IMG/VR virus record: IMGVR_UViG_3300024259_002152
Span: 1-64,000 of that record
Length of the DNA: 64,000 bases
Reading direction: 5' to 3' (one strand)
DNA from: a virus
Shown piece after piece: positions 10,587-30,370 of the stretch. How positions within the stretch are numbered: the stretch's first letter is position 1; each line of letters opens with the position of its first letter. The translations under genes and the position numbers were made by a program. The notes beneath the pieces are model-generated. The model was given only the letters and a program-made list of their open reading frames with translations. It searched no databases and was not told where the DNA came from.

Positions 10587-11057
10587 ATGAGATATAGAGT
10601 AAAAAGAGAAGTAAAAGCAATAATCAAGCAATACAAATTAGATTGTTCTGTTGAGGAGTTCGGGGATAAAGTAGATTGGGAAATGGTTTCTTTGTATCAA
10701 AATTGTTCTGAAAATTTTATTGAGGAATACAAGGACAGAGTAGATTGGATATTTATTTCAGTTTATAAAAAGAATCTTTCAGAAGAGTTTATTGAAAAAT
10801 ATGAAGATAGAGTATCTTGGGATTGTATTTCTGGTTGTCAAAAGCTTTCGGAAGATTTTATAAGAAGGTTTAAAAGTAGATTACGTTTGGACCATTTGCT
10901 TTGTAATTGGAATGTAAGCATATCATATCGGTTATGGGAAGAAATGGAAGAGTTAGGACGCAAACGGTTTGATCAGGTGATTGAGTGTTCGACAGGGGGA
11001 GAGGTTCCTTTAGAGTATGACCTTATCGACAATCGTTTTGACATATTAGATTTATAA
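10587..11057 (+). CDS. DW..IS..LSE.FI repeat protein with C-terminal RFDILDL tag
   Basis: This 156-residue protein carries three to four copies of a 23-residue repeat (DRVDWIFISVY..NLSEEFIEKYE type) between residues about 27 and 105. Each repeat has Asp-Trp, a Ser-Tyr/Gln core and LSE-[DEN]-FI, probably forming a helical-repeat solenoid. Similar repeats occur in uncharacterised phage and giant-virus proteins as I recall. It ends in DNRFDILDL, the tag shared by six other proteins here. There is no ribosome binding site, and the start lies 10 bases after a -10 box. A related repeat protein lies at 11937. Confidence 0.7.
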   Translation: MRYRVKREVKAIIKQYKLDCSVEEFGDKVDWEMVSLYQNCSENFIEEYKDRVDWIFISVYKKNLSEEFIEKYEDRVSWDCISGCQKLSEDFIRRFKSRLRLDHLLCNWNVSISYRLWEEMEELGRKRFDQVIECSTGGEVPLEYDLIDNRFDILDL

Positions 11058-11107
11058 ACACATCTTTTCACTAACTCCTTATTCTATAACTACTTATCAA
11101 TTTTTGT

Positions 11108-11135
11108 TTGAAAGTGAAAGAGGAATCACTATAAT
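11108..11135 (+). promoter_or_regulatory. Sigma70-type promoter TTGAAA-N16-TATAAT with GTGAAAG box
   Basis: TTGAAA (11108-11113), GTGAAAG (11114-11120) and TATAAT (11130-11135) have the same spacings as at 10549. The gene at 11159 has a normal leader with TAGGAG. Confidence 0.7.
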
Positions 11136-11158
11136 TAGTTTTTATTTAGGAGTAAGTA

Positions 11159-11503
11159 ATGAGTAAGAATAAAGAAGAGATTTTACAAGAGTATATTGAC
11201 TATAGGCGTGTTAATGATGTTAAAGATGAGGTAATAGATAATATATTTTTAAATGAGATGGTATGGTCAGATGGAGATGGGAATGATTGTCATTTATTCA
11301 AAGACCATGGGCGTATAAAAACGTTTTTTGAGAATATTATTTTAGGAAGACATGCAGATGATAATCCTATTAGGGCATGGGGAGGAAAAGGTAATGTATG
11401 TGGGACTATGTATCGAAATGCTGTAATAGTTGATAATATTAATGAAGCAATATTTAACAGGATATATGAAGAATTAGAGAAAAGAGATTTTAGAATAAGA
11501 TAA
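11159..11503 (+). CDS. Hypothetical protein, 114 aa
   Basis: This acidic soluble protein has a strong start (TAGGAG) and its own promoter. The C-terminal half (RAWGGKGNVCGTMYRNAVIVDN then a helix) could be a small alpha/beta fold. No family is recognised. It starts an early-type operon running through the tagged genes to 13343. Confidence 0.6.
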   Translation: MSKNKEEILQEYIDYRRVNDVKDEVIDNIFLNEMVWSDGDGNDCHLFKDHGRIKTFFENIILGRHADDNPIRAWGGKGNVCGTMYRNAVIVDNINEAIFNRIYEELEKRDFRIR

Positions 11504-11529
11504 GAGGCATAAGAAATTGGGAGTTAGTT

Positions 11530-11745
11530 ATGAAGGTAAAAGAATTAATAAAAGAGTTAGAGAATAAAGATCCAGAGATGGAGGTATTTCTTTATAATCA
11601 ATCTGATGGTGCTCAAGGTCCATTATCACGAATAGAGATAAAAAAAGAGTATTGGACAGTTGAAAATATTCCCAAGGAAGTTGACCCATATGATGTAGTT
11701 GTATTTGTTTCATGGCAAAAAATATTAGGAATAAATAATGGGTGA
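11530..11745 (+). CDS. Small protein, MKVKELIKELENKDPEMEV family
   Basis: This 71-residue protein has an N-terminal helix MKVKELIKELENKDPEMEVFLY followed by strands. It resembles small phage and bacterial proteins that begin 'M.v.eLi..L...dpd.eV.l' and have no known function. Its last codons overlap the next gene by 8 bases, which suggests translational coupling. Confidence 0.6.
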   Translation: MKVKELIKELENKDPEMEVFLYNQSDGAQGPLSRIEIKKEYWTVENIPKEVDPYDVVVFVSWQKILGINNG

Positions 11746-11914
11746 AAAAAGATGGTTAGAGAGATATAAAGAATGGCTTGGGGGAGTTTTTGAAGATCCA
11801 GGAGATAATATTTTATGGCAGATCCAAAGTCTTACAATAGGGGATTTTCAAATAGATAATGATTTTGTTGAGTCGGGGCCAATTAATAGTCGTTTTGAGA
11901 TTTTAGATTTATGA
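11738..11914 (+). CDS. 58-aa protein with C-terminal RFEILDL tag
   Basis: This short ORF reads MGEKRWLERYKEWLGGVFED and ends NSRFEILDL directly before TGA. The body is a Trp-rich amphipathic helix plus a short acidic stretch, so the tag makes up a sixth of the protein. It overlaps the previous gene by 8 bases. It is the shortest of the seven tagged proteins and shows that the tag is attached to very different bodies. Confidence 0.7.
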   Translation: MGEKRWLERYKEWLGGVFEDPGDNILWQIQSLTIGDFQIDNDFVESGPINSRFEILDL

Positions 11915-11936
11915 GTTCATATAAGAGAAAGAAATC

Positions 11937-12521
11937 ATGAAAGAATCAGTCAAAAAAGAGATAGAAGAAATAATGGAAAAGTTTAAGAACAAGGACGCAT
12001 TCGTTTTTCCTATTGATAGTATTTTAGAAATGTTTGGTGCTTCTCCTATAAAATTTGAGAATAGGATAGATTGGTCATATCTTTCTCGTTATGGGAATTT
12101 GTCAGAAGATTTTATGAGAGAATTTAAAAATAGAATAGATTGGCATTGGGCATCTGGTCGTCAAAAATTATCTGAAGATTTTATTAGAGAAGTGCAAAAC
12201 AAAGTATATTGGGGAGATATTTTACAATTTCAAAAATTATCTGAATCATTTATTAGGGAGATGAGAGGTAGAATAAATAAAAATGAGGATAGGCTTAAAT
12301 TTGTTCGGGAACATCAAAATATATCGAATGAATTAAGGCAAGAAATAAATATTGGGGAGATATTATCTGCTGAAGATGCTGCTGCTGTTTTTCATTATTC
12401 TCCTCCTCCTCGTAATCCTTATGCCTCATATAAGAAGAAATCATCTTCTTCTAAAATAACAAAAGCAGTTTCTTTTGTCGATGATTTTATTAATGACCGT
12501 TTTGAGATTTTAGATTTATAG
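11937..12521 (+). CDS. DW..IS..LSE.FI repeat protein with C-terminal RFEILDL tag
   Basis: This 194-residue paralogue of the 10587 protein has three clear 23-residue repeats at about residues 41-110 (NRIDWSYLSRYGNLSEDFMREFK and two more) and a decayed fourth. The linker is Pro/Ser/Lys-rich (PPPRNPY, KKKSSSSK), and the C-terminus is INDRFEILDL. The disordered linker before the tag would let the tag reach a partner independently of the repeat body. Function unknown. Confidence 0.7.
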   Translation: MKESVKKEIEEIMEKFKNKDAFVFPIDSILEMFGASPIKFENRIDWSYLSRYGNLSEDFMREFKNRIDWHWASGRQKLSEDFIREVQNKVYWGDILQFQKLSESFIREMRGRINKNEDRLKFVREHQNISNELRQEINIGEILSAEDAAAVFHYSPPPRNPYASYKKKSSSSKITKAVSFVDDFINDRFEILDL

Positions 12522-12531
12522 GAATATAGAT

Positions 12532-12981
12532 TTGGTCAATTTCGTAGAGGACTATTTTAAGAGAAAAAATCGTATTATGGCGCATTTTATTGGACAAGAT
12601 ATAGTTCTTCCTAGTCAAATAGCGGATATATTAGACGTGCCATATACAGATATAATACATTTGGGAAGCGAATTGAAAAATATCACTATTCTTTCGCAGA
12701 TGAAACATTCAGATATTTTGAGTGATATTTATTCTTTGGGATTATCAAAATTAATTTTAGTATACAATTTCTATCCAGAGATGAATTTCTATTTTATAAT
12801 GAAGAATAGAAAAGCTCTTAAAATTAAATATTCAGAATGGAGTTCTTCTTATAATAATAGGGCTAACGGGCATATTTCTCATCGGATTTTTTGCATATTT
12901 GAAAAATTTAAAATAGAAGGGTTAAAAGGCAAGTCCATGAGTGTTTCGGTTCCGAGTCGTTTTGAGATTTTAGATTTATGA
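12532..12981 (+). CDS. 149-aa protein with C-terminal RFEILDL tag
   Basis: The ORF starts with TTG at 12532; an ATG at 12577 (MAHFIGQD) is an alternative, and neither has a strong ribosome site. The body is hydrophobic/helical (IADILDVPYTDIIHLGSEL, LILVYNFYPEMNFYFIMKN) and not similar to the other tagged proteins. It ends PSRFEILDL, with the stop overlapping the start of the next tagged gene. Family not recognised. Confidence 0.6.
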   Translation: MVNFVEDYFKRKNRIMAHFIGQDIVLPSQIADILDVPYTDIIHLGSELKNITILSQMKHSDILSDIYSLGLSKLILVYNFYPEMNFYFIMKNRKALKIKYSEWSSSYNNRANGHISHRIFCIFEKFKIEGLKGKSMSVSVPSRFEILDL

Positions 12982-13343
12982 GTAGATATTATAGATTAAA
13001 TAAGGACCACAGTGTAGAGTCAATTTCTGATGATGACATACAGGCATGGGCTCAGGATTTTAATGATCATCCTGAGAATAAAATAGTTGAGCATACAGTG
13101 GTAGGAAAAGGAGTAGGGGTATCGACTGTTTTTTTAGGCATAAATCATGCTTTTGATGATTATGCTGATCCTATTTTATTTGAAACTATGGTATTTGGTG
13201 GGGATCATAACGATCATATGGAGAGATATACGACATGGGATGAGGCAGTTAAGGGTCATGAGAAGATAGTAAAAATGTGTGGGGGAAGAATAAAAGAAGA
13301 TGATGAAGTAATCAACAACAGATTTGATATATTAGATTTATAG
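12978..13343 (+). CDS. Widespread phage protein (VSTVFLG..H..FETMVFGG type) with added RFDILDL tag
   Basis: The 121-residue protein begins with a YYRLNKDHSVESISDDDIQAW segment and contains VSTVFLGINHAF, FETMVFGGDHND and RYTTWDEAVKGHE. This is a very common small phage protein of unknown function in which, as I recall, the family normally ends soon after the 'TW.eA..GH' block. Here an extra stretch ends INNRFDILDL, so the tag looks added to a standard family. The ATG overlaps the stop of the preceding tagged gene. Its end is only 3 bases from the end of the convergent minus-strand operon. Confidence 0.75.
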   Translation: MSRYYRLNKDHSVESISDDDIQAWAQDFNDHPENKIVEHTVVGKGVGVSTVFLGINHAFDDYADPILFETMVFGGDHNDHMERYTTWDEAVKGHEKIVKMCGGRIKEDDEVINNRFDILDL

Positions 13344-13346
13344 AAA

Positions 13347-14498
13347 TTATTCTCTTTTTTCTAATTTACATGCTGCTGAAATAGTAAAGACATCTAGTCC
13401 AGATAGGTCATCAGAGATTATCCATTGTAATCTGTCTTGATTTTCTGGTTTAAGGACTAGAGGTTCTGCCACATAAGAAATTCCAGATAGCCATGATCCA
13501 CCTGCTGGGTTGGTTCCTCCATATGCTGTTAATCTTGTATCTGGAATGGCAAATATATCGGAAAATTTGCGAAAAGAATTTTGGCTTTCTATTTCGTCGC
13601 TTACAATTCTTTGATATACAATTCCATTAGATAGCTCAGCAACTCCGAAGAATGAATTATATGGTATTCCAGGCATGGTGCTATCTGCCAATATGGTTGA
13701 ATAACTATCATCTGCGAAAACAAAAGTAAATGATAAAACATGAAGCCACGTTCCTAGGTCTGGTTCTATACTAAATGTGGCAGATGAAATATCTGATGTT
13801 CCTCCTTTTTCTTGAACATCTATTTCATCGAGAAAATAATCTGGAGGGGAACCTACTCCTATATCTACAGTAGTTATTCTAAAAGCATCGATTGTTTGTG
13901 CTGTAAGAGACATGTCTTCTAGTGGTATAGTAAATTTTTGCCATGTGGTAGTAATTCCTGTATTGACATAATCTCCAATATTTACTGTAGTTCCTACTTG
14001 TGCCCCAGCTCCTGTGTCCCATCCTATTAAATTTGCAGCTTTGGTTCCTGTAGTCGTCCATGCTGAGATTGCTATCCATCCTGTTATAGTTGTGTAATTG
14101 GTTAAATCTAAATTAGAACCTTTCGCTAATTGCATAGTATCATTATTAGATGTTGTTGTTGCATCTATCATAACTGTTCCGCTATGTGGGGAGATAGCTC
14201 CAACTGCTCCGCTATTAAAAACCCATCCTCCTCCTACAATAATAGATGTTGCCCATTCTGTATCTTCATCATATACTGGTTCTGGGGTTCCTCCGAAAAC
14301 TCCAGCTTGTATATTCATATTGATTCCAAAAGTCGGATTGGAGAAATATAAGGCGCTATTTTCAAATCGACGGAGAGGATATGTGGCTACAACTACTGCA
14401 TTTTTATCACAGCAATCGATTATGTCTCCGTCATTAACAGTGACTATATGAGCATTTCTATGATCTCTTGGATCTGTTATGTAGGTATCTATTCCCAT
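13347..14498 (-). CDS. Virion-type beta-sandwich protein
   Basis: This 383-residue protein is last in the minus-strand operon. Residues about 75-235 look like a carbohydrate-binding-module-type jelly roll (DLTNYTTITGWIAISAW, TWQKFTIPLEDM, IDAFRITTVDIG..PDYFLDEI), a layout seen in phage virion proteins. The rest is beta-rich with no catalytic motif. An AGGA site lies upstream of the ATG. It probably forms part of a fibre or capsid decoration together with its upstream neighbours. Confidence 0.6.
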   Translation of the reverse strand: MGIDTYITDPRDHRNAHIVTVNDGDIIDCCDKNAVVVATYPLRRFENSALYFSNPTFGINMNIQAGVFGGTPEPVYDEDTEWATSIIVGGGWVFNSGAVGAISPHSGTVMIDATTTSNNDTMQLAKGSNLDLTNYTTITGWIAISAWTTTGTKAANLIGWDTGAGAQVGTTVNIGDYVNTGITTTWQKFTIPLEDMSLTAQTIDAFRITTVDIGVGSPPDYFLDEIDVQEKGGTSDISSATFSIEPDLGTWLHVLSFTFVFADDSYSTILADSTMPGIPYNSFFGVAELSNGIVYQRIVSDEIESQNSFRKFSDIFAIPDTRLTAYGGTNPAGGSWLSGISYVAEPLVLKPENQDRLQWIISDDLSGLDVFTISAACKLEKRE

Positions 14499-14500
14499 TT

Positions 14501-15085
14501 TTATCCTACTGTCGTAGAGTGATAATTAAATACCAAAGTTCCATCTATTTCTGTATCAAGATTTGTTGCATATAGTGTAATTAGATTATTTTTAGGGACG
14601 ATAATATCTTGTTCGAAATTGAAATGACTTGTTGTGTCAGAAGAGCTTATATATATTCTTTGTAATTCTACTCCTCCAGATAATCCTGTTATTTCATCTC
14701 CTCCTTTAAACACTCCGTCTGCTGTTTTCCCGCTTCCAAGATTTAGATTGGCAGGACTAATATCGCTTCCTCCTACTTGTGTTCCGCTATCCTTTCCTAT
14801 TACTTTTATTATTTCTGTTTGTCCTGTTCCTCCCAATCTTAGATCGATTCCTTCAAGGACCATTTCTCCTTCATGAGTATTTTGGATATATAGGAAACAA
14901 ACATCTCCAGTTGTATTTGACGGGTCGTCATATGCTGGGGTTTGTTGGAATATTAAATTAAAAGCAAGTCCTTCATCATGATTTATATGGTGTTCTGTTG
15001 ATGATGTTACTGCTATTGTTTTTAATCTATTCTCTGTGCTGACTCCAGCGGTTCTTCCTGATCCTTGTCCATCTTCTATTAGCAT
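14501..15085 (-). CDS. Virion protein paralogue 1 (EDGQGSG..A.V...NRL type)
   Basis: The N-terminus IEDGQGSGRTAGVSTENRL followed by EHHINHDEGLAF is the hallmark shared with the next two genes. The family recurs in phage structural proteins. The remainder is beta-rich and includes ISSSDTTSHFNFEQDIIVPKNN and DGTLVFNYH, also close to paralogue 2. The three genes are a tandem triplication, probably giving related subunits of one particle component. Confidence 0.65.
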   Translation of the reverse strand: MLIEDGQGSGRTAGVSTENRLKTIAVTSSTEHHINHDEGLAFNLIFQQTPAYDDPSNTTGDVCFLYIQNTHEGEMVLEGIDLRLGGTGQTEIIKVIGKDSGTQVGGSDISPANLNLGSGKTADGVFKGGDEITGLSGGVELQRIYISSSDTTSHFNFEQDIIVPKNNLITLYATNLDTEIDGTLVFNYHSTTVG

Positions 15086-15101
15086 TTCATTCCCCTTTTA
15101 A

Positions 15102-15653
15102 TTATGAGTTTGTTTGGTGGTAATGGAAAACCAGTGTTCCATCTATTTCTATTCCTCCTGTAACGGCATGGAGGCATAGAGTTTGATTAGGAGGAACTAT
15201 TAAATCTTGTTCGAAATTATAATATGAACTAGTATTGCTGCCTGTTATATAAAATCTTTCAACTGTATTTCCATGAGTAAGTCCAGTGATGCCGTCATCA
15301 ACAATAAATGTTCCATCAGCGTTATTCCCACTTCCCGCATTACAGTTGGCAGGAACGGCAGCAGTTCCAACAGCAGTCCCTGTAGTTTTTAGTTTTACTT
15401 CAATTTGTTCATCACTAGATGTTCTTAACAGTATTCCTTCTACTATTAGATTTACTCCATTACCATTTTTCATATAGACAAAACAGCAGTCGGCAGAAGA
15501 AGGAGTTTTTTGAAACAACAACTGGTATGCTGTTCCTTCGCTCACATTAGAATGGTGTTCTAAAGTTTGTGTTATTGCATGGGTTAATAGTCTATTTTCA
15601 GCATTAACCTCTGCTTTTTTTCCTGATCCTTTCCCATCTTCTATAATAGCCAT
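15102..15653 (-). CDS. Virion protein paralogue 2 (EDGKGSG..A.V...NRL type)
   Basis: This 183-residue protein is most like its downstream neighbour: both share ITGLxxGxxxERxYI, a SxYNFEQDLIVPPNQ segment and DGTLVFHYH. A GKGSGKKAEVNAENRLL start and EHHSNVSEGTAYQL mark the family. There is no signal peptide or catalytic motif. It is a structural protein by family and by context. Confidence 0.65.
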   Translation of the reverse strand: MAIIEDGKGSGKKAEVNAENRLLTHAITQTLEHHSNVSEGTAYQLLFQKTPSSADCCFVYMKNGNGVNLIVEGILLRTSSDEQIEVKLKTTGTAVGTAAVPANCNAGSGNNADGTFIVDDGITGLTHGNTVERFYITGSNTSSYYNFEQDLIVPPNQTLCLHAVTGGIEIDGTLVFHYHQTNS

Positions 15654-15674
15654 TATTATTTTCCTATAAAGTAT

Positions 15675-16262
15675 TTAATGTTTTGCCATCATCAAAAAAG
15701 ATAATCTAGTATAAATTGTTCCAGAGGTTTGGTTTCCAATATATGACAACTCTAGTGTACCATTTTGTCCAATTACAATAGAACCTTCTTTATTAAATGT
15801 ATTCATATCTCCGTTTGCTTTGGTGTGCCATCTGTCTATTTCTGATTCTGTTCCAGTCAAAGTAGGATTATCTGTGTACACGGTTACTTCTGCTGCATTT
15901 CCACTAGTTGTATTGAGATTTATGGGAATTGTTGTTGTTCCTCCAGAAGAATATGTTCTTCCCAAAGCAATGCTATAATAATTATTAATATTGGGGAAAG
16001 AGGTTCCTCCAGAAGAATCTATTATTTGATGGCGACAATATGTTATAATTAAATCTAGAGTAGAGGAGTCATTAGTAATATGCAGAGGAACTACTGTTCC
16101 GTTAGAGAGGGTTGTTGTTCCTATCACTTGATAAGCTTGTCCTTCATTATGGCTGATCGAATGTTGTATTGATTCTGAAAATGTTCTTGCTAACAAGCGA
16201 TTATCATTATCGATTCCAGCTTTTTTTCCTGAACCTTTTCCATCTTCTATAATAATACCCAT
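15675..16262 (-). CDS. Virion protein paralogue 3 (EDGKGSG..A.I...NRL type)
   Basis: The N-terminal signature IIIEDGKGSGKKAGIDNDNRLL and HSISHNEGQAYQV match paralogues 1 and 2, but the C-terminal 140 residues are more divergent and Ser/Thr/Gly-rich (YSSGGTTTIPINLNTTSGN). It is therefore the most distant copy. It ends in LSFLMMAKH. A structural role is inferred. Confidence 0.65.
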   Translation of the reverse strand: MGIIIEDGKGSGKKAGIDNDNRLLARTFSESIQHSISHNEGQAYQVIGTTTLSNGTVVPLHITNDSSTLDLIITYCRHQIIDSSGGTSFPNINNYYSIALGRTYSSGGTTTIPINLNTTSGNAAEVTVYTDNPTLTGTESEIDRWHTKANGDMNTFNKEGSIVIGQNGTLELSYIGNQTSGTIYTRLSFLMMAKH

Positions 16263-16276
16263 AACTTATTTCCTAT

Positions 16277-16504
16277 TTAGGATTTATCTCTATAGTTTCT
16301 AGCATCTTCTTCGTGTAGTTTTGTATTGGTCGTCATTTCTAATTGCAGATTAAATTTTTTCAATTCTTTTAGGATTTTTTGCAAGAGCATCATTTCTTCT
16401 ACAGATACGGTTAGTAGCTCATTATTTTCTTCTCCTGCTATGCCTATTGGTTTAGCAGTTGAGTCTATATCTTTTCCAAATCCTAATACATTCTTATTTG
16501 TCAT
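16277..16504 (-). CDS. Small protein duplicating the C-terminal domain of its upstream neighbour
   Basis: The 75-residue sequence VLGFGKDIDSTAKPIGIAGE followed by NNELLTVSVEEM matches the C-terminal domain of the 16528 gene product (LLFGKDPDDEAQPIGISGEE then TNEVLTVD). Both then form an amphipathic helix. It is thus a free copy of one domain of a two-domain protein encoded next door. It is likely structural. Confidence 0.65.
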   Translation of the reverse strand: MTNKNVLGFGKDIDSTAKPIGIAGEENNELLTVSVEEMMLLQKILKELKKFNLQLEMTTNTKLHEEDARNYRDKS

Positions 16505-16527
16505 TCTCTTTTTTGAAGAAAAAACCT

Positions 16528-17085
16528 TTAATTATCTTGTGTTGTAACATGAATTTCTTTGTTTTTAATCTCATTTCCTGTAATTATAGCCATTTGAATG
16601 TTGGCTTTTATTAATTCGACATATATTTCTTCTAGGACTGTTGCGACATCTATATCTACTGTTAGAACTTCGTTAGTTTCTTCTCCTGATATACCTATTG
16701 GCTGAGCTTCATCGTCGGGATCTTTTCCGAACAGAAGGATACCATCTGTATCATCTGTTATTTCTTCACCTTCTGATACTTGATTAATTAGTTCATTTTC
16801 CTCGGCAGAAGTGATTGCTTCATCTATTTCATCAGAAGAGATTGGTCCAGGTAGGTCGTTATCGTATATTTTTTCTTTGGAGAAAGAAACTATCCCAGAT
16901 TTAACTAGATCAGTTAGAACAATAGAATGTCCAATTTTTTCTTTTGTATAGTATTGTAGTGCATCTATTGTTTCATTTGGAGAGATAGCAGGTAGAAGGA
17001 GCAGATCTCCTATTGTTATTTTATTGTTGGAATCATTGGTTATAAACCATGATTCTCTATAATTTTCTGCTGTTCTAACATCCAT
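16528..17085 (-). CDS. Two-domain virion-type protein
   Basis: The start is best placed at ATG 17085, with GAGAAG 4 bases upstream; a TTG at 17097 would add four residues. The N-terminal domain (SWFITNDSNNKITIGDLLLLPAISP...YYTKEKI) is homologous to the 17075-17320 product. The C-terminal domain (LLFGKDPDDEAQPIGISGEE...) is homologous to the 16277-16504 product. An acidic linker joins them. The protein therefore looks like a fusion of two modules that also exist separately on either side. Confidence 0.65.
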   Translation of the reverse strand: MDVRTAENYRESWFITNDSNNKITIGDLLLLPAISPNETIDALQYYTKEKIGHSIVLTDLVKSGIVSFSKEKIYDNDLPGPISSDEIDEAITSAEENELINQVSEGEEITDDTDGILLFGKDPDDEAQPIGISGEETNEVLTVDIDVATVLEEIYVELIKANIQMAIITGNEIKNKEIHVTTQDN

Positions 17086-17320
17086 TATTCTTCTCAATTG
17101 TTTGTTCTTTTTTTTCTATTGTGATTTTTTTATTTTGGACTAAGAACGTGAGCATTTGGGAATCTACTATTTTTTCGCGGGAGTAGAACCTTAGGAGATT
17201 AACTGTTTTATCTGGTTTAATAACTGGCAGTAATGGTAGATCTCCTATGGTAATATTCGTTGGAGTGATATTTTTGGCGAACCACATTTCTTTATTAGAT
17301 TTTTCTATTTCTATTGGCAT
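17075..17320 (-). CDS. Small protein duplicating the N-terminal domain of its downstream neighbour
   Basis: This 81-residue protein contains MWFAKNITPTNITIGDLPLL and a RFYSREKIVDSQMLTFLV segment, clearly related to residues about 15-75 of the 16528 product. The final 15 residues are Lys/Glu-rich. It overlaps the start of the next gene. It is probably structural by association. Confidence 0.6.
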   Translation of the reverse strand: MPIEIEKSNKEMWFAKNITPTNITIGDLPLLPVIKPDKTVNLLRFYSREKIVDSQMLTFLVQNKKITIEKKEQTIEKNNGC

Positions 17321-17321
17321 A

Positions 17322-17840
17322 TTATACTATCGACTTATTAGTATTAATAGTCATATCGCCTCCTACATTATTTGTGATATTGACAGTAGGAGGGTTGAGA
17401 GGATGATCATATTGATGAGGCATGCGATTTCCATATATTGAGCTACGCCAATCAGTAACTCCATCGAGATACTTAGCAGCTTCGAGTGATCTGCTTGGGG
17501 TAACATTTTTTCTATCTATATCTAGATATCTAAGAGATTCTCTTGCCATACCTTGTAGTGTTGGTCCTGGTATATCGTCGTCTTCATATTCAGTTTTTAG
17601 ATCTTCTACTAGATTGACGCATCTATTGAAAGCTTTGACTGCTCTTGTTGATTCATCTTTAGGATATTTCCAAGCTTCTGAGAATAGTGGGAATGAGTGA
17701 ACTTCATTCATAAATACAGCGGTTAGAACTATTCTTTTTTTTGATTCTGTCAGTTGGACTTTACAGGTATAAGCGTCTTTGTCCATTGTGTCATTAAAGT
17801 CTGTTGTGTGTCCCTTGGTCATATATGCCAGTTTTATCAT
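17322..17840 (-). CDS. Hypothetical virion-operon protein, 172 aa
   Basis: This is a mixed alpha/beta protein (AYTCKVQLTESKKRIVLTAVF, helix around RAVKAFNRCVNLVEDLKTEYE) with an Asn/Thr-rich C-terminus (PPTVNITNNVGGDMTINTN). No clear ribosome site is visible. Instead its ATG overlaps the stop of a 26-codon ORF upstream (ATGA), so translation may be coupled. Family not recognised. Confidence 0.6.
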   Translation of the reverse strand: MIKLAYMTKGHTTDFNDTMDKDAYTCKVQLTESKKRIVLTAVFMNEVHSFPLFSEAWKYPKDESTRAVKAFNRCVNLVEDLKTEYEDDDIPGPTLQGMARESLRYLDIDRKNVTPSRSLEAAKYLDGVTDWRSSIYGNRMPHQYDHPLNPPTVNITNNVGGDMTINTNKSIV

Positions 17841-19132: not shown

Positions 19133-19206
19133 AAAGGATTTTAGATAGTATTTGAGAAATATAAGACTTACAGTTAAAGTTTTATTATTTTTTATAAGGG
19201 GGAGAT

Positions 19207-21747: not shown

Positions 21748-22257
21748 ATGGCAGAAACAGTAGAATTTGGTAAAGCTTTTAGTCGTCCTCAGCCTAAGGG
21801 TTTGATTCTTTACACTCCTAAAAGTGGTCAGTCAATTACTGTCCGTTTTGTGGGGAAACAACAAGTAATCTATTTTCGTTGGAACAATGAAACTAGAACT
21901 GCTTTTTATTTTGAGAACAAAATAGAAGGATCAATTCGAAGAATCGCTTCTTTTGTTATGGATAGAGATGATGAGCAAATAAAAGTATATCTTTGTCCTA
22001 CTTCGATATTTGAGCAAATGGGCAAATATGGCAAGACTCATGATTTTCATATCACCAGATTTGGTCAGGGAATACAAACTCAATATAAAGTCGAAAGTTT
22101 AGGGGAATCTTTTATTAGTGAGGTGATGGAAGATAGGGTAGAGGTTACTTCAAAAACTTATCCTTTCGCAGATATTTTGATAAAAAAAGTTCAATGGGAG
22201 CTTCTAGATGTAGAATCAGAGCCTATTACTGATAGATTTGATATTTTAGATTTATAA
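21748..22257 (+). CDS. Possible ssDNA-binding-type phage protein with C-terminal RFDILDL tag
   Basis: The 169-residue body is beta-rich: LILYTPKSGQSITVRFVGK, RRIASFVMDRDDEQIKVYLC, then a THDFHITRFGQGIQTQYKV segment. The order 'as.vidR.d..iKv....siF..i..yg..hDf.i.r.G.g..T.Y.v' resembles the OB-like ssDNA-binding proteins found in many large phages. The match is by pattern only. It ends ITDRFDILDL. If the tag binds the replication clamp, an ssDNA-binding protein would fit. Confidence 0.55.
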   Translation: MAETVEFGKAFSRPQPKGLILYTPKSGQSITVRFVGKQQVIYFRWNNETRTAFYFENKIEGSIRRIASFVMDRDDEQIKVYLCPTSIFEQMGKYGKTHDFHITRFGQGIQTQYKVESLGESFISEVMEDRVEVTSKTYPFADILIKKVQWELLDVESEPITDRFDILDL

Positions 22258-22322
22258 AGGGTTTTCTCAATTTCTTCATAATTGTTAAGTATATAGTTAT
22301 TTAATAATGCAGGAGAAATATT

Positions 22323-23194: not shown

Positions 23195-23205
23195 GAATAA
23201 AAAGT

Positions 23206-23241
23206 AGCCACTCTATCTTTTCTAAATAGGGTGGTTTTTTT
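23206..23241 (+). terminator. Rho-independent terminator
   Basis: A 9-bp stem (CCACTCTAT with ATAGGGTGG, one G-T pair) is followed by seven T. Confidence 0.85.
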
Positions 23242-23334
23242 ATGTCCTGAATTTTCATTTGTCATATCTTATTGATTTTAAATGTCAAAAATTGACGATA
23301 TTAGTACGTTATTATTTTTTTAGGAGAAAATATT

Positions 23335-23679
23335 ATGAACGGTTTGACACAAGAAGAAAAAAGTATAGCTCTTCAGTATGCTATCAATGGGGCTGATTTT
23401 ATGTTTGAACCAAGTGTAGAATTGTGCAATAAGATTGCTAAGGGGGATTTGAAAGCTCAAGGAATTAACAGGGTTATGACTAGTATTATTTTGCAGAGAA
23501 AACCTATTAGATTAGATTCTAATATGGTTATTAAATATTGTCAAGGGACATTGGATACGAAAAATACTTGGTTATTTAATAATGGGAATATTAGAGTAGT
23601 TTCACCGAGGATGAAAGAGCCAGTTAAACTGAAACCAAAAGAAGATGGTACAAAAAAAGAGGAGAATAGCGATGAATAA
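23335..23679 (+). CDS. Hypothetical protein, 114 aa
   Basis: This mostly helical soluble protein (KSIALQYAINGADFMFEPSV, ...GINRVMTSIILQRKP) has a Lys/Glu-rich tail. TAGGAG precedes the ATG. It overlaps the next gene by 8 bases and heads a unit that runs to PhoH. Family not recognised. Confidence 0.6.
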   Translation: MNGLTQEEKSIALQYAINGADFMFEPSVELCNKIAKGDLKAQGINRVMTSIILQRKPIRLDSNMVIKYCQGTLDTKNTWLFNNGNIRVVSPRMKEPVKLKPKEDGTKKEENSDE

Positions 23680-23956
23680 TGAAAATAATAAGGAAGCTAT
23701 GCAAAACACATCTAAAAAAACGACTAAGAAAACCGTTAAGAGCAAAAATATCGAAATCACTAAATTTGACGATTTGGAGGGGAAATTTCTTCATGTTAAA
23801 GTAGGTAGTTCTGAATTCCCTGCTAGTGAAGAACATATAAATAATATTCAGAATCAGATAGTGGATTTGTTGGAGAAAAACAATGTTAATTGTTTAGTGT
23901 TTGTGACTCATCATGCAGTCTCTATGGACATCATCGAAAGGCAGATTAATAATTAA
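23672..23956 (+). CDS. Hypothetical protein, 94 aa
   Basis: The start is set at 23672, where GAGGAG has proper spacing; a longer in-frame ATG at 23645 lies inside the preceding gene. A Lys/Thr-rich N-terminus leads into a small alpha/beta domain (ITKFDDLEGKFLHVKVGSSE, ...VNCLVFVTHHAVSMDII). Family not recognised. Confidence 0.6.
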   Translation: MNNENNKEAMQNTSKKTTKKTVKSKNIEITKFDDLEGKFLHVKVGSSEFPASEEHINNIQNQIVDLLEKNNVNCLVFVTHHAVSMDIIERQINN

Positions 23957-23967
23957 TGGAGAGCATA

Positions 23968-24396
23968 ATGTTAAAAAAGCCTGTTTTTAAGAATTTTACT
24001 GAGTACTGGTATTACGCTCGGTATCTGTCAAGGGAGCAGAGAAAAATCATTTTCAAGAGTCTCCCTGCTGAGCAAAAGAAATTTTTAGACAATTCATATT
24101 TAAAGGAGGGATGGAGTGATTTATTCTATCGTAATGAGATTAATGAGAAGATTGATGAATTAAAAGAATTGTGTGGTTATGATATTTTAGAAATAAGATT
24201 AAAAGCGATACAGGGCAAGAGCGTCTATGTTTCTACTAAATTTTGGCAAATAGTCCAGGAGCAATTCGATAAAATCGTGCCAGAAGCAGTTCATTTTATA
24301 ATGGGAGGATTAAAATCAATCCCTGAGGAGATGAACGATCAAGTTTGTTTGATCGTCTATGATCCGTCAGAATCTCTTAAATCGTCTGATAGTTAA
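23968..24396 (+). CDS. Hypothetical helical protein, 142 aa
   Basis: ATG 23968 is preceded by GGAGAG, so it is preferred over ATG 23956. The sequence has a YYARYLSREQRKIIFKSLP helix and a GWSDLFYRNEINEKIDELKE segment, then a beta part (GKSVYVSTKFWQIV). I believe related proteins occur next to replication or PhoH genes in other phages, but the function is unknown. Confidence 0.6.
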   Translation: MLKKPVFKNFTEYWYYARYLSREQRKIIFKSLPAEQKKFLDNSYLKEGWSDLFYRNEINEKIDELKELCGYDILEIRLKAIQGKSVYVSTKFWQIVQEQFDKIVPEAVHFIMGGLKSIPEEMNDQVCLIVYDPSESLKSSDS

Positions 24397-24433
24397 TTTT
24401 TAACTTTTAAAATTTTTATTTACTAGGAGTCCT

Positions 24434-25171
24434 ATGTCTAGAAAAAAACGTAATGGGAATGGAAATGGGAACGATAACGGAAACGGGAATAGTAATGGAA
24501 ATGTAATAGAAACAGCCGAAAAAGAAGTAAGAACGATAAAAAGAATAACAGTAACAGCTAGAGGTGAAAATCAAAAAGCACTCTTAAAATCCATTAAAGA
24601 AAATTTAATAACAATTGCAGCAGGACCTCCAGGGTCTGGCAAAACGATGCTGTCAGTTGTTAGTGGTCTTAAAGGGTTTATAGCAGAAAAATATGATAGA
24701 ATGATTTTCACAAGACCATGTGTTGAGGCAAATGGGGAGAATCTGGGATTTCTTCCAGGAGATTTGAATGAAAAAATACATCCTTATATGTATCCTATCT
24801 TTGATTTTCTATCTGATTATTTAACAATAAAACAGATAGAAACATATGTTAAAAATCAATGTTTCTTAACTTTGCCCCTTGCTTTTCAACGGGGAATGAC
24901 ATTTCGTGATGCTTTTGTATTATTAGATGAGGCACAAAATACTACTCCTGAACAGGTTAGAATGTTTTTAACAAGAATTGGGGAGAATTGTAAGGTTGTT
25001 ATTACTGGAGATCCATTGCAGACAGATATTAAAAGTAAGAATGGTTTAGTTGATGCCTGTGAGAGATTGAGAGGAATAGATAGTTTGGGTATTATACAAT
25101 TATCTCATGAGGATATCGTAAGGAACCCAATTGTGAGGCAGATAGAAGAAAGATATTCAGAGGAAAAATAA
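24434..25171 (+). CDS. phoH: PhoH-like P-loop ATPase
   Basis: The 245-residue protein carries Walker A GPPGSGKT at 64-71, the FTRP block near 92, Walker B FVLLDEAQNTT at 161-171 and the sensor-like ITGDPLQTD at 190-198. All are diagnostic of PhoH ATPases, proposed to act on RNA and common in phages. A low-complexity Gly-Asn stretch (residues 7-23) precedes the domain and is unusual. The DNA coding it is a short repetitive GGNAAY array. AGGAG precedes the ATG. Confidence 0.9.
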   Translation: MSRKKRNGNGNGNDNGNGNSNGNVIETAEKEVRTIKRITVTARGENQKALLKSIKENLITIAAGPPGSGKTMLSVVSGLKGFIAEKYDRMIFTRPCVEANGENLGFLPGDLNEKIHPYMYPIFDFLSDYLTIKQIETYVKNQCFLTLPLAFQRGMTFRDAFVLLDEAQNTTPEQVRMFLTRIGENCKVVITGDPLQTDIKSKNGLVDACERLRGIDSLGIIQLSHEDIVRNPIVRQIEERYSEEK

Positions 25172-25242
25172 AGGTTTTTAAGGGTGTAAAGTTGAATATT
25201 TATTTATATATTTAATAGGCAAGTTGCGCTCTTGGAGAAAAT

Positions 25243-28200
25243 ATGTTTAATTTAAAAAAATTAATGAGAATAGTTAAAAAGGGAATATCTTTTGGCAATG
25301 CTTTTAATATTAGCAAGCAAGCGGTGTATAGAGGCACGGGAGAAGACATCGGGCTTACGGAGCAAAAAGAGAAAAATATTTATGAAGAGTCAGATCGCTT
25401 AGAAGAAGATATGGGTACACAATGGTTAGCTCAACAGGGTGTATCTGTTGAACCTTCTGATATTCCTGTTCAAATGGCTCCTGTTCCTGAAGATGTTCCT
25501 GATGTAGTAGAAGATCGAATGAATATGTGGCTAAAAGAGAATTTTAAAGATATTAATAATGAGGAAATTTCTGCTGTAACTGCTGATCCTGGTTTGTATA
25601 GAGAATTAGTATCTCATCCTGAATATGTACAAATTTTATCTGATAAAATAAAAGTTAATCATTCTGGATTAACAGATGCTCAGTCAGATTTATTTGTAGA
25701 GACAATGATGGCTAGGACTCAAGATTTGATGGGATCAATAGAAGAACGAGAAAGGGAGATGGAGGAAGAAGATGCATTAAAAAGTCAACAAACTATAGAG
25801 TTGCCAGAAACGGGTCTGGGTCAAAAACTTTATAATAAAATAGTTAATTTAACTCCAGAGGAGAATCAGGTATTTAAAGACCAGATGATGATGGGGTACA
25901 CTTCTCAAATGCTATCTGATGCTGTTAGTAATCATTTTGATGCGCCTCCAGGAAGTAGAATAGATCAAAGAATGAATTTCTTTTTGAGTAATCCTGTTTT
26001 TTTGGAAGATATATTTCAAGCAGATCCTGATTTTGCACAAAGATATCAGCAATATGACTCAAAATTCCAGAAAATAGATTTATTAAAACAAGAAAAAGGA
26101 GATTTTTTGCTTTCTGTGTTAGATAGGTTGATAGATATTTTAGATCCGTCAGTTGTAAATTGGCTTAAGAGGGGGTTTCCTTATCAGGGGAGAGCAAAAG
26201 GGCAAAACGTAAGAGAACAATCTCAAACAGATATTATGCCAGAGACTGATGACGGAAAAACTTCAGAACTTGGTGGTCTTGATCCGATAGAACAGGCTCC
26301 TCTTGCTACAACTGGCGCCGATGAAGGGGAATCAAGTAAATTTATATCAGATGCTACAAAATACTATTTAACAGACAATATTAATGAGATGAGGGTATTG
26401 AATCAAATTTCTTCTACAGCAATGATGGAAGAAGGAAAAAATAAGTATATGTATAGTTCTGAAGGGTCTCTAGATCAAGCTCGCGCTTTAAAGCAATATG
26501 GAGCAGCAGAAAAATTAAATGCATATTTTCTAGCTGTTGCTAGTCAGTTAAAAGATTTATTCGATGTTAGAGGCAATCCTTTAACTAGAGACATAACTCA
26601 ATTGGTATATAGGAATCCAGAGGGGAAAGCGGTAATGGATGTAGATGTCATGAAAAGAATGATGAATATTGGTGAAAGATCTAGAGAAATGGCAGAGCAA
26701 GAGGGGGAGCAAGAGGGATATAAGGAGGTTTCAGATTATACGAATTATATAGATGAATATAAAAATAGAATAAAATCTGGAGATGAAAAAGAGCCGTTTT
26801 CACCCAAATGGAAAGAAATGATCAATTATAATCTTGTTATGAGATCTTTTGCTGAATTGGGGGAAATAAAAAGTAAGATTCTTGATCTGAAAAAAAGAAA
26901 ACATACAGATCCTGCTTCATTTATAGCTCCATTAACGGGAGGGGGAGGATTGGGTTTATTGGAGCATTTTTCTGGTGTTGATGCCAATGATACAGAAGAA
27001 ACAAAGAACAAAAAGATGTCTGATTTTATTTATATGACTTTAAAACAAGATCCAGCCTTAAAAAAAGATCCTAAGGGTTATTCATTAAAAGCTCCTTTAC
27101 AAGCTTATGAAGACACAAAGGTTATAGATGGGTTGCAAAGAGAAATAGAACAAGATAAAGAGAGTTTATCATTTAAATATAATCAGAATAAACAAGATAG
27201 TATCAGGAGTAAAGAGCAGGAAATTAATAGTATGAGAAGAGAGATGGGGAAAAATTTTAAATCTCTTATTGGCACTTCTTATATTCCTATTTTAGGCCCT
27301 TTAGCTGATCAAGTTGATGAGAAAGTTGTGGACCCGAAGACGGGTGTGCTAAAAAATAAGTTTTCACAAGGCGCTTTGTTCGGTTTTGTAGAATTATTTG
27401 ATCATAATCCTACTAAGATGCAAAATTTTATAGGTTTGGGGCAACAGAAAAATAGATATGATGATCCTCTATACAGAACAAATACTGAATTATATTATAA
27501 AATTAGAGGGACAGAACCTCCAGAACATGTCAAGTCAATGATAGGTGCGTATACGGAAGGGAAGGAAACGGGGGCTCTTAGTAAAGATGAGTGGTATAAA
27601 GATGTATTTGACACGTATAGACAGTTTGACGTTTATCAAAGATCTTATGCAAAACAAAAAGAAAGATTAGATAAGGTTCAAGAAGGACTTAGTTCAAGAA
27701 TTTCTAAAGCTAATGATAAAATAGTTAATAAGATTGAGTCAGGAGAGATAGATTTAGAAAATATTCGAGATCGTATTAAAGACCCTGCTAAACAAATGGA
27801 ATTTGAAGAAAAGATGAACAGTTGGGACAAGGCGTCTGCTTTGCCTTCAGATTATTATGCTGATTATTTTGGGCTAGCAAAAACAGAAAAAATGATATTG
27901 CAAGATAAGAAAAAGATTAAAACTCTTCAACAAGGAGTGCCAAAGGAAGAGAAAAAGAGAAAAACAGAAAGAGCTGGAGAAGGAGAAGGGACTAAAGATT
28001 TGCTTGTCAAATTTAAAGAAAATAAAACAAGACTAGAACAAATATTTGAAGATCGTGGTAAAAAAATTGATTTATCTGCTCTTAAAATAGCGGAGTCTAT
28101 GTACCGAATTGTTCAAAATAGATTATTAAAGTTGTCGGAGATCAAGAAATCGAGTTATAAATTTGCATTTATAAATATAGGTTCAGTTGACGATATTATA

Positions 28201-28251
28201 AAAGAGGTTAAAAGAGATTTTGATGATTTCTTTGATAATTTATTTGAGTGA
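25243..28251 (+). CDS. Large charged structural-type protein, 1002 aa
   Basis: The protein is largely helical and very rich in Glu, Lys, Gln and Met, with no transmembrane segment, signal peptide or catalytic motif that I can see. Coiled-coil stretches occur around residues 160-190, 640-680 and 790-920. The length and position before head-tail genes would fit an internal virion or scaffold-like protein. It is followed by a small zinc-ribbon gene and a conserved small protein. I do not recognise a portal or capsid fold in it. Confidence 0.6.
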   Translation: MFNLKKLMRIVKKGISFGNAFNISKQAVYRGTGEDIGLTEQKEKNIYEESDRLEEDMGTQWLAQQGVSVEPSDIPVQMAPVPEDVPDVVEDRMNMWLKENFKDINNEEISAVTADPGLYRELVSHPEYVQILSDKIKVNHSGLTDAQSDLFVETMMARTQDLMGSIEEREREMEEEDALKSQQTIELPETGLGQKLYNKIVNLTPEENQVFKDQMMMGYTSQMLSDAVSNHFDAPPGSRIDQRMNFFLSNPVFLEDIFQADPDFAQRYQQYDSKFQKIDLLKQEKGDFLLSVLDRLIDILDPSVVNWLKRGFPYQGRAKGQNVREQSQTDIMPETDDGKTSELGGLDPIEQAPLATTGADEGESSKFISDATKYYLTDNINEMRVLNQISSTAMMEEGKNKYMYSSEGSLDQARALKQYGAAEKLNAYFLAVASQLKDLFDVRGNPLTRDITQLVYRNPEGKAVMDVDVMKRMMNIGERSREMAEQEGEQEGYKEVSDYTNYIDEYKNRIKSGDEKEPFSPKWKEMINYNLVMRSFAELGEIKSKILDLKKRKHTDPASFIAPLTGGGGLGLLEHFSGVDANDTEETKNKKMSDFIYMTLKQDPALKKDPKGYSLKAPLQAYEDTKVIDGLQREIEQDKESLSFKYNQNKQDSIRSKEQEINSMRREMGKNFKSLIGTSYIPILGPLADQVDEKVVDPKTGVLKNKFSQGALFGFVELFDHNPTKMQNFIGLGQQKNRYDDPLYRTNTELYYKIRGTEPPEHVKSMIGAYTEGKETGALSKDEWYKDVFDTYRQFDVYQRSYAKQKERLDKVQEGLSSRISKANDKIVNKIESGEIDLENIRDRIKDPAKQMEFEEKMNSWDKASALPSDYYADYFGLAKTEKMILQDKKKIKTLQQGVPKEEKKRKTERAGEGEGTKDLLVKFKENKTRLEQIFEDRGKKIDLSALKIAESMYRIVQNRLLKLSEIKKSSYKFAFINIGSVDDIIKEVKRDFDDFFDNLFE

Positions 28252-28265
28252 AATAAGGTTCAAAT

Positions 28266-28436
28266 ATGGTTATAACAATAGTATGTTCTCATTGCAGGAA
28301 TCATGATAAGGATCCTCAAATAGAAATCAATTTTAAAGATGGTAAAATATATTACATTTGTCCAGACTGTGAAAAAGAGAGCGTTATTAGTTTAAAAGCA
28401 GATTCTACTCCTTTGCCCAGGATAAGGAGAATGTAG
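28266..28436 (+). CDS. Small zinc-ribbon protein, 56 aa
   Basis: The short ORF has CSHC near residue 7 and CPDC near residue 33, with a short beta hairpin (QIEINFKDGKIYYI) between, giving one zinc ribbon. The C-terminus is basic (LPRIRRM). It lies 14 bases after the 1002-residue gene, and its stop is one base before the next start. Confidence 0.65.
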   Translation: MVITIVCSHCRNHDKDPQIEINFKDGKIYYICPDCEKESVISLKADSTPLPRIRRM

Positions 28437-28437
28437 T

Positions 28438-29013
28438 TTGTTTTTTATAGTTAATAAAACAAAAAATACGATAGTCATATCTGATATCGGGGTTACATTA
28501 GGCCCCAGACAAGCAACTGATTTAGATAAAAGTATGGATAGAAGTAAGTCCGATTCATCTAAATTTTTAAAAGCAGCTATTAGAAAAGGGGAAATAAGTG
28601 TTCGTATCAAAGATGGAGTTAAGCCATCTAATGTAGAACCTGCTAAAGTTGAAAATGGTCTTGATAATTTTAAAAAAGAGATGATAGCAGAGATGAAAGA
28701 TTTGTTATCTCAACAATCTCAACCTGTTGCTCAATCAGGTTTAGACAAAAAGGATTTGGCAGACTTTGCACAACAAATAATACAGAATATACCTAAACAA
28801 GAAACAGTTGTTATTCAAGGGCAAGGTCAGGAAATAAAGACCGAGGAAGAAGTTGAGATGGATGAGGGGATTTTAGCAGATATAAGTGCCAGAGCAGTTG
28901 ATCAACTTGTTGAGGGTAGTGATGCTAAATCTCTTAATTATAAAGAAGAAAAGCAAGAAAATACGATATTAAGTAATATCAGTGAACTTGAGGACTTATT
29001 TTTAAATGATTGA
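28438..29013 (+). CDS. Conserved small virion-operon protein, 191 aa
   Basis: The gene starts at TTG 28438, with AAGGAG 9 bases upstream. The N-terminus FFIVNKTKNTIVISDIGVTL followed by GPRQATDLDK resembles a domain I recall in phages of this type ('ivNkt...i.isdlg..l.pr...dLd'), perhaps structural. Residues 75-191 are helical and Gln/Glu-rich and end in ELEDLFLND. Function unknown. Confidence 0.55.
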   Translation: MFFIVNKTKNTIVISDIGVTLGPRQATDLDKSMDRSKSDSSKFLKAAIRKGEISVRIKDGVKPSNVEPAKVENGLDNFKKEMIAEMKDLLSQQSQPVAQSGLDKKDLADFAQQIIQNIPKQETVVIQGQGQEIKTEEEVEMDEGILADISARAVDQLVEGSDAKSLNYKEEKQENTILSNISELEDLFLND

Positions 29014-29091
29014 AAAATAGAACAAGGATATTTCCAAGCATAATATAATACTATTATAAAAGGTTAATCTTATTGTATTATGGAGATAGGA

Positions 29092-29259
29092 ATGGTCGAA
29101 AAAACAGGGATAAATTTTAGGATATCGATAAGTCATATTGAGAAATTAAAAAAAATTGCTAGAGAGAAAGCATATAAAGAAGATGTTGAGGTAAGTTATA
29201 TAGATTTAATCAAAGAAGCATATGAAGAGAAATATAGTCTGGAGGTTGATAATGGGTAA
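29092..29259 (+). CDS. Small ribbon-helix-helix-like protein preceding an HNH endonuclease
   Basis: The 55-residue ORF (start 29092 with GGAGATAGG upstream) has a strand GINFRISISH followed by two helices (IEKLKKIAREKAYKE, VSYIDLIKEAYEEKYS), the outline of a MetJ/Arc or CopG domain. Its stop overlaps the start of the HNH gene. The same arrangement exists at 52691, so it probably regulates or accompanies the endonuclease. Confidence 0.6.
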   Translation: MVEKTGINFRISISHIEKLKKIAREKAYKEDVEVSYIDLIKEAYEEKYSLEVDNG

Positions 29260-30136
29260 AAAACTGACTTACCAGGAAGTAAAAAAGAGATTTGAAGATG
29301 AGGGGTGTGAGTTGCTCGATGAATATTATTGTAATAGTCAATCTAAAGTAAAATATGTTTGTAATTGCGGAAATGAGTCGATAATACGGCCGCATAGTTT
29401 TTTTAATGGGCATCGTTGTCAGAAATGTGGGTCTCAAAAAGCAGGAAAAAAAGTTAAGAATACATTTAAGTATGTTAAGCAATATTTTGAAAATTGTAGT
29501 TGTAAATTATTAGAAACAACATATATAGATAATAAAACTAGAATGAAGTTTATTTGTAGTTGTGGGAATAAGTCTAAAATTAGTTTTAATAATTTGACAA
29601 ACGGGCAAAGATGTATGAAATGTAGGGGAAGAGAAAAACACACATTCGAATATGTAGTACAGTATTTTAAAAAGGCTAGTTGCAAATTATTGGAAACAAA
29701 ATATTTAAACAATAAAACTAAAATGAAATTTGTTTGTAATTGTGGGAATAAGTCGGAAATAAACTTTCGTTCTTTTCGGCAAGGAACAAGATGTAAAAAA
29801 TGTAATAAGAAAAATAATTCTAATTATAATCCTAATTTAACAGATAAAGATAGAGAAGATAGAAGAAAATCTTTAGGATATAAACAATGGGTTAAAGATG
29901 TTTATAAAAAAGATAACTATACATGTCAAAAGTGTTTTAAGATAGGATATAAATTAAACGCTCATCATATAGAGGGTTTCGCTGAGAATAAAGAATTAAG
30001 AAAAGATATAGATAATGGAATAACTTTTTGCAAAGATTGTCATGATATATTTCATTCGATATATGGCAGGAAGAATATAACTAAAAAACAATTAGATGAT
30101 TTTAAATCTAAACAAGGTACAAAGAAGGTAGGTTAG
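29252..30136 (+). CDS. HNH homing endonuclease with three zinc-ribbon DNA-binding repeats
   Basis: ATG 29252 has GGAGG 7 bases upstream and is preferred over the longer form at 29222. Three repeats of about 60 residues, each 'F.yvk..Fe...CkLLe..Y.n...kmk..C.CGn.s.i....f..G.rC.kCg', carry two Cys pairs and are likely site-recognition modules. A linker NPNLTDKDREDRR leads into an HNH domain with CQKC, LNAHHIEGF and CKDCHDIFH near residues 235-280. It is free-standing between complete genes. Relatives lie at 35547 and 52842. Confidence 0.85.
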   Translation: MGKKLTYQEVKKRFEDEGCELLDEYYCNSQSKVKYVCNCGNESIIRPHSFFNGHRCQKCGSQKAGKKVKNTFKYVKQYFENCSCKLLETTYIDNKTRMKFICSCGNKSKISFNNLTNGQRCMKCRGREKHTFEYVVQYFKKASCKLLETKYLNNKTKMKFVCNCGNKSEINFRSFRQGTRCKKCNKKNNSNYNPNLTDKDREDRRKSLGYKQWVKDVYKKDNYTCQKCFKIGYKLNAHHIEGFAENKELRKDIDNGITFCKDCHDIFHSIYGRKNITKKQLDDFKSKQGTKKVG

Positions 30137-30145
30137 GATAAAATA

Positions 30146-30370
30146 ATGCCATTAACAGATAGTGAAAAAGAATGGATTGTAAGCGAAGCATTAAAGACTG
30201 ATGAGGGAAGAGCAGGATTGTCTGAATCTATGGTGGAGCCCATAAGAGATCATATTGGTCCTTATAGATTCTCTTTTTCTGTGCCCAAAGAAACTAAAAT
30301 ATATAAAATAGAAAAATATGAAGATATTGTTTCAGATATAAGCAATAGATTTAAGATATTGGATTTATAG
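30146..30370 (+). CDS. 74-aa protein with C-terminal RFKILDL tag
   Basis: The body contains ALKTDEGRAGLSESMVEPIR, which resembles the N-terminal arm of some phage major capsid proteins ('R..La..M.ePIr'), then a short strand region and the tag SNRFKILDL. The tag's acidic position is Lys here, the only such case among the seven. If the capsid-like resemblance is real, the protein may interact with capsid or capsid-protease components. It lies directly after the HNH gene, at some distance from the other tagged genes. Confidence 0.6.
   Translation: MPLTDSEKEWIVSEALKTDEGRAGLSESMVEPIRDHIGPYRFSFSVPKETKIYKIEKYEDIVSDISNRFKILDL

Follow-up and report, generated by a model that had tools for sequence, protein, structure and literature searches.

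The T4 capsid targeting sequence is an N-terminal peptide, cleaved and carried by a handful of internal head proteins, and encapsulin cargo-loading peptides are C-terminal peptides of alternating hydrophobic character that dock diverse cargo to an HK97-fold shell. The C-terminal tip of bacterial single-stranded DNA-binding protein (SSB) is an acidic-hydrophobic interaction peptide, where the hub bears the tip and its clients bear the pockets. The clamp motif of phages T4 and RB69 is a short hydrophobic-acidic C-terminal peptide, set after a variable linker on unrelated phage proteins; in T4 it is common to gp43, gp55 and gp33, is interchangeable between them and functions internally too (PMC2988020). 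Here we describe a seven-residue C-terminal peptide (the tag), RF[DE]ILDL or a close variant, which ends many small proteins of a huge phage and two of its relatives. The window in which it was noticed covers the first 64,000 bases of a virus record of 350,866 bp (IMGVR_UViG_3300024259_002152, below G000). In our opinion the tag is probably a short linear motif, portable between proteins, that docks to one receptor, which is itself likely to be phage-encoded.

The likeness to the T4/RB69 motif covers the hydrophobic-acidic C-terminal peptide, the variable linker and the unrelated carriers. However, the T4/RB69 motif serves three replication and late-transcription proteins, against 30-40 mostly accessory proteins here, and in our phage the polymerase itself is untagged and the profiles used found no clamp. 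The comparison with the SSB tip is invited by one tagged protein (21748 in the list below), whose tag sits at the place of the SSB tail, but in our case it is many clients that bear the tip. The T4 capsid targeting sequence is also a short terminal peptide on otherwise unrelated phage proteins, and a phage structure recognizes it; unlike the tag, which is C-terminal, it stands at the N-terminus and is removed by the prohead protease. Encapsulin cargo peptides are similar in being C-terminal on diverse proteins, a likeness of general design. Finally, import into the phage nucleus of Chimalliviridae is a selective, species-specific sorting of many phage proteins, as tag-dependent sorting would be, but it depends on a recognition surface and not on a terminal signal (PMC11087766), whereas the tag is linear and terminal.

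One peptide on many unrelated proteins

The preliminary description of this DNA claimed that seven window proteins share a C-terminal peptide immediately before the stop. This is correct for all seven, which end in [SND]RF[DEK]ILDL-stop:

10587..11057, + strand: tagged protein, 156 aa, 'tryptophan repeat' family (phrog_3532), end DNRFDILDL, tag codons 11034-11054
11738..11914, + strand: tagged protein, 58 aa, without known family, end NSRFEILDL, tag codons 11891-11911
11937..12521, + strand: tagged protein, 194 aa, tryptophan repeat family (phrog_3532), end NDRFEILDL, tag codons 12498-12518
12577..12981, + strand: tagged protein, 134 aa from the first ATG at 12577 (the open reading frame, ORF, runs from a TTG at 12532), end PSRFEILDL, tag codons 12958-12978
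12978..13343, + strand: tagged protein, 121 aa, end NNRFDILDL, tag codons 13320-13340
21748..22257, + strand: tagged protein, 169 aa, diverged paralogue of the phage gp32-like SSB, end TDRFDILDL, tag codons 22234-22254
30146..30370, + strand: tagged protein, 74 aa, end SNRFKILDL, tag codons 30347-30367

Among the seven, only the protein at 30146 has K at tag position 3. The stop of the 12577..12981 gene overlaps the ATG of the following gene (12978).

A search of the rest of the genome and of related phages, which the preliminary description had proposed, extended the set to about 37 tagged proteins in G000 and dozens in each of two relatives, the 298-kb G001 and the 548-kb G002, the latter being the most complete of the records with tags. 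Searched as a DNA pattern over the whole G000 record, RF[DE]ILDL-stop is matched exactly at 20 sites on the + strand and at none on the - strand; the reversed control pattern gives 0 matches, and allowing one mismatch gives 33 sites. ORFs were read outside 84-90 and 319-351 kb, and in the stretches read the class motif R[FLIMVAYWS][DEKGNSH][IL][LMI]D[LI] stands at the exact C-terminus of 33 of them, against a mean of 0.05 and a maximum of 3 for 300 permuted motifs. Four further ends with M at tag position 4 (RVEMLDL, RFEMLDL, RAEMLDL and RFNMLDL) complete the total. The tagged genes cluster at 10.6-13.3, 21.7-22.3, 30.1, 94.6, 106-116, 131-145, 250-256 and 273-279 kb, and the consensus is [SND]-R-[FLW]-[DE]-[IL]-[LM]-D-[LI] within at most 12 residues of the C-terminus. 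Outside the window the position is indeed relaxed, with 1-12 extra residues, often acidic, in one G000 gene and in about a dozen genes of G002. Such near-terminal copies disfavour a strictly carboxylate-dependent (PDZ-like) reading. An alternative genetic code with TAG readthrough was ruled out: the tags stop at TAA, TGA and TAG, and long standard-code ORFs are present.

The bodies that carry the tag differ widely. By BLAST, 96 tagged proteins from G000 and the sampled parts of G001 and G002 make up 58 unrelated body families, including tryptophan-repeat (phrog_3532), DUF4116 repeat, DUF551, zinc-ribbon-like and coiled-coil proteins, membrane proteins, a metallopeptidase-like protein and the SSB paralogue; most are small, with a median of about 95-120 aa. 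The MKYKVGDKVRIKTW... family has tagged members and untagged paralogues (92506, 115671) within one genome. Homologues of the protein at 12978 were compared as had been suggested: its orthologue in G002 is tagged, while those in LR756502 and Rhizobium phage L338C are not. Likewise, the tryptophan-repeat homologues of the 10587 family in phage G, LPJP1 and BpSp are untagged. Given these untagged paralogues and outside homologues, the tag is, as far as sequence comparison can tell, an add-on to the protein bodies. The modularity proposed in the preliminary description is borne out, since the tag is found on unrelated bodies rather than only inside homologous domains and is kept while the bodies diverge. 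The 103 tagged proteins searched against Pfam, PHROGs, PADLOC and NCBIfam received hardly any functional annotation, and PDB profile searches with the core tagged families gave nothing convincing; weak PADLOC/NCBIfam matches (coiled-coil SMC-like, Cas11-like) were taken as chance or low complexity.

It may be argued that a shared end is only a by-product of gene mobility, that is, a copied 3' cassette end or a recombination handle without any role at the protein level. Tags do lie at hot spots of insertion, for example the split dnaE gene and the locus of the actin-fold gene volactin, and ATGA overlaps occur at 11 tag stops. Further, the Leu codons are restricted to TTR: CTN codons at tag position 5 number 0 of 29 in G000 and 1 of 78 over three genomes, where about a third would be expected, and this shortage fits common descent of the tag DNA. 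Against this, every other tag position varies synonymously (CGT/AGA/AGG/CGA, GAA/GAG, ATA/ATT, TTA/TTG, GAT/GAC), synonymous changes within tags are already indicated to be faster than non-synonymous ones, and the peptide is retained where bodies are down to 25-45% identity. In the family of the gene at 109749 the tag arginine and both acidic residues (R, D, D) are invariant in five phages at identities as low as 24%. Mobility without a protein-level role is thus very unlikely in our opinion.

Reciprocal best orthologue pairs among the three phages agree with this: 22 of 24 retain 6-7 of the 7 tag residues over bodies that are 25-83% identical, in a comparison that took in only pairs with both members tagged. 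The protein at 132918, for example, has a 34% identical body and an identical tag. The tag is, by all appearances, kept by selection on the peptide. The earlier statement that the peptide and not the DNA is selected holds as far as synonymous codons vary, but the codons are not fully free, CTN Leu being nearly absent at position 5. The scarcity of CTN together with the synonymous variation elsewhere fits a spread by DNA copying plus selection at the peptide level.

Candidate receptors for the tagged tails

The tag has the anatomy of a docking motif, because a short hydrophobic-acidic peptide follows a variable linker on many unrelated bodies and its position is relaxed in some. According to the docking reading, the tag has been copied onto accessory genes within a narrow clade of huge phages, and a single receptor would grip the tagged tails and gather the accessory proteins at one place or machine. 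That receptor is most likely phage-encoded, since bacterial genomes show no such arrays. Its ancestral clients may be a zinc-metallopeptidase-like protein with an HExxH motif (108412) and a 119-aa protein (109749), encoded by conserved genes just upstream of dnaE.

Both families have tag-like C-termini even in relatives without RF-tag arrays. Members of the 108412 family end in ..ARFNLLDL (G009), ..TRYDFIEIEDEEE (G008) and ..NEFSMIDFGEF (G017), and members of the 109749 family in ..TRADLLDI.. (G009) and ..TRWDLIDV.. (G008). Because of these ends we consider that the motif predates the arrays and that in tag-rich phages it has, judging from its carriers, spread onto accessory genes. Tagged genes are packed around and within the split dnaE and occupy insertion hot spots.

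L010 3190-4605 and 7542-9515: the two halves of split dnaE in G000

The halves lie 2.9 kb apart in G000, 1.2 kb apart in G001 and 2.0 kb apart in G002, and in all three the gap contains tagged genes; G008 and G009 have a gap of 0.3-0.7 kb, which in G008 includes a 42-aa gene with the end PISNSYKWTILDI. As to the split itself, DNA polymerase III alpha is divided into a PHP part and a finger part in G000, G001, G002, G008 and G009 and is continuous in G017. In G002 the end of the first dnaE half, ELEDDLGGVDRY, recurs on an unrelated 110-aa protein beyond an endonuclease-like gene. The primase is apparently split too, its zinc-finger and Toprim parts lying about 17 kb apart in G000 (L009 15148-15771, L010 13188-13895).

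The preliminary description went further and proposed the sliding clamp as the most likely hub. If the tag were a clamp-binding motif of the T4/RB69 type, the tagged accessory proteins would ride on the phage or the host clamp. The RB69 polymerase C-terminus had been given correctly (KKASLFDMFDF), and its end ASLFDMFDF has the same spacing as the tag, S-x-F-[DE]-h-h-D-h. T4 gp43, gp55 and gp33 offer a precedent, in that their shared hydrophobic-acidic C-terminal motif can be exchanged between them and is active in internal positions as well (PMC2988020); the tag, too, is a hydrophobic-acidic peptide that follows a variable linker and stands at the C-terminus or close to it. The tagged SSB paralogue at 21748 and a weak core, E-x-[VIL]-D-[LI], common to the tag and the Pol III end also speak for the clamp. 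However, the tag is absent from both Pol III halves, the split primase, DnaB, RecA, the ResIII-type helicase and the gp32-like SSB, so that of the replication-related proteins only the SSB paralogue has it. Instead of the tag, Pol III has a conserved clamp-motif-like C-terminus of its own (ETIDIFG / ETVDLFA / ESVDLFG), which relatives with and without the tag share, mostly as [ED]-[ST]-[VI]-D-[LIM]-F-[GA]. Searches for a sliding clamp of the beta or gp45 type gave no PF02768 or PF02916 match in G000, a record that is probably incomplete (it also showed no gene of phrog_2522, the family of the major head protein in the relatives), and these profiles may miss diverged clamps; no beta-clamp (PF02768) was found in five relatives. 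Membrane proteins among the tagged ones are a further difficulty. Hence the modular part of the earlier hypothesis stands, while its clamp part is weakened, and we regard the clamp as an unlikely partner.

A receptor on the replication side is favoured by the protein at 21748, in which the acidic/aromatic C-terminal tail of SSB is replaced by the tag TDRFDILDL, by the putatively ancestral tagged genes adjoining dnaE and by the weak core common to the tag and the polymerase end. Within the docking reading we would tentatively place the receptor on the phage replication or transcription apparatus or its compartment, as the likeliest of the sites considered; the prohead ranks behind it as a rather doubtful site. 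AlphaFold2 models of the 21748 protein and of a 109749 orthologue were of low confidence (predicted local distance difference test, pLDDT, 42 and 39) and were not used.

The prohead comes into question because of the protein at 30146, whose N-terminal ~32 residues match the N-arm of the relatives' major head protein. If the tag were a cargo-loading signal for the virion, the tagged accessory proteins would be packed and injected. The protein at 30146 and its G002 counterpart, both beginning with that N-arm, argue for this, and so does the small size of most tagged proteins; lineage-specific tags would suit self-recognition by the prohead, and the T4 capsid targeting sequence is a precedent. 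On the other hand, one would not readily expect membrane proteins or an SSB paralogue as cargo, and the capsid link concerns one family only, so we find virion loading improbable. The N-arm itself (EGRxALAxAMVEPIR region) is also present at the start of unrelated small proteins, as a portable N-terminal module would be (window 30146; L066 4422-4640; L116 5427-5789).

Hydrophobic C-terminal peptides are also common degrons, and a degron would make early accessory proteins short-lived or have them removed on schedule. This would suit many unrelated small proteins, membrane ones included, and G000 encodes an AAA ATPase (101044). But the conserved Arg, the acidic positions and the near-terminal copies with acidic extensions are unlike the known degrons of ClpXP, Lon and FtsH, and there is no evident reason to make about 40 proteins just for degradation. 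In our opinion a degron is quite unlikely.

The docking reading, which we prefer, has its own weak points. No core replication protein carries the tag, and four or more tagged proteins look membrane-anchored. The orthologue comparison was limited to pairs tagged on both sides, as mentioned. Moreover, in the sister phage G009 a core gene retains an RF-type end, yet the arrays use a tag that looks unrelated to it (see below), hence tag and receptor need not be one system.

Distribution of the tag and a second tag in a sister phage

When 2.9 million viral contigs were scanned for the pattern, just a handful matched, the main two being G001 and G002, and scans of viral contigs for W-type and RS/RA-type variants returned the 548-kb relative alone. 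An unbiased search for C-terminal patterns placed the tag motif as the top hit in G000, G001 and G002, and internal control offsets in the same search gave nothing. With one mismatch allowed, no arrays were seen in 14 volactin-bearing relatives or in three GenBank huge-phage records. The unbiased search showed no array tag in the sampled parts of G014, G010, G017-G020, G016 and G008. About 85,000 bacterial and archaeal genomes gave isolated single matches and no tag array. As far as these scans reach, tag arrays appear to be confined to a narrow clade of huge phages. Our searches of the open-access literature turned up no account of such a tag.

G009 (147 kb; its volactin is 71% identical) is without an RF-tag array. 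An unbiased search blind to the first motif found in it another C-terminal pattern, FxWxx[MI]x[ILV]. This pattern ends 23 small-protein ORFs, every one of them on the + strand; permuted motifs gave a mean of 0.13 and at most 7. The tagged bodies of G009 are nearly all unrelated by BLAST, and a search with one of the tagged proteins matched itself alone. We do not claim a C-terminal tag of its own for Bacillus phage BpSp, where the likeness is mostly inside homologous families; C-termini like TLFKLGEL / ILNKLGEI are common there to proteins of two or three families.

The tags of the sister phages suggest that proteins here are addressed or docked by a previously undescribed system. It is conceivable, though we would not press it, that this phage clade runs a protein-addressing system, in which a lineage-specific C-terminal peptide would route the products of acquired accessory genes to one phage-built receptor or compartment, and the tags would diverge between sisters (RFEILDL vs FxWxxMxI) as self-recognition codes. 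Huge phages have small genes of no known function by the hundreds; a shared address peptide groups dozens of these and predicts a common partner for them, and accessory genes could join the phage machinery by gaining a seven-residue end. That a sister phage bears another and different tag points to a recurrent phenomenon, and C-terminal pattern enrichment is applicable to any phage. If a single receptor is shown, the scale, the portability and the lineage-specific tags would make this a new kind of system; otherwise it belongs with the known terminal docking peptides.

The volactin locus and neighbouring genes

Relatives were also found with the help of a gene that lies just downstream of the tagged gene at 30146:

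30539..31597, + strand: volactin gene (PF25216, actin-fold)

In tag-less relatives, e.g. L077, the upstream neighbour abuts volactin and the tagged gene (30146) is absent. Within the huge-phage clade volactin is flanked by a gene block upstream and by the tail-tube gene, and its copies are 57-85% identical in 15 viral contigs (L076-L090); a search for open-access papers about the volactin of phages found none. The gene that precedes volactin (window 28438-29013; L076-L090) has a C-terminal ..[DS]EL[ED][DG][LM][LF]G that is kept in nearly all relatives and is possibly another docking tail. LAGLIDADG-type and HNH homing-endonuclease-like genes (window 7341-8447 and 29222-30136; phrog_11023, phrog_559) lie near tagged clusters.

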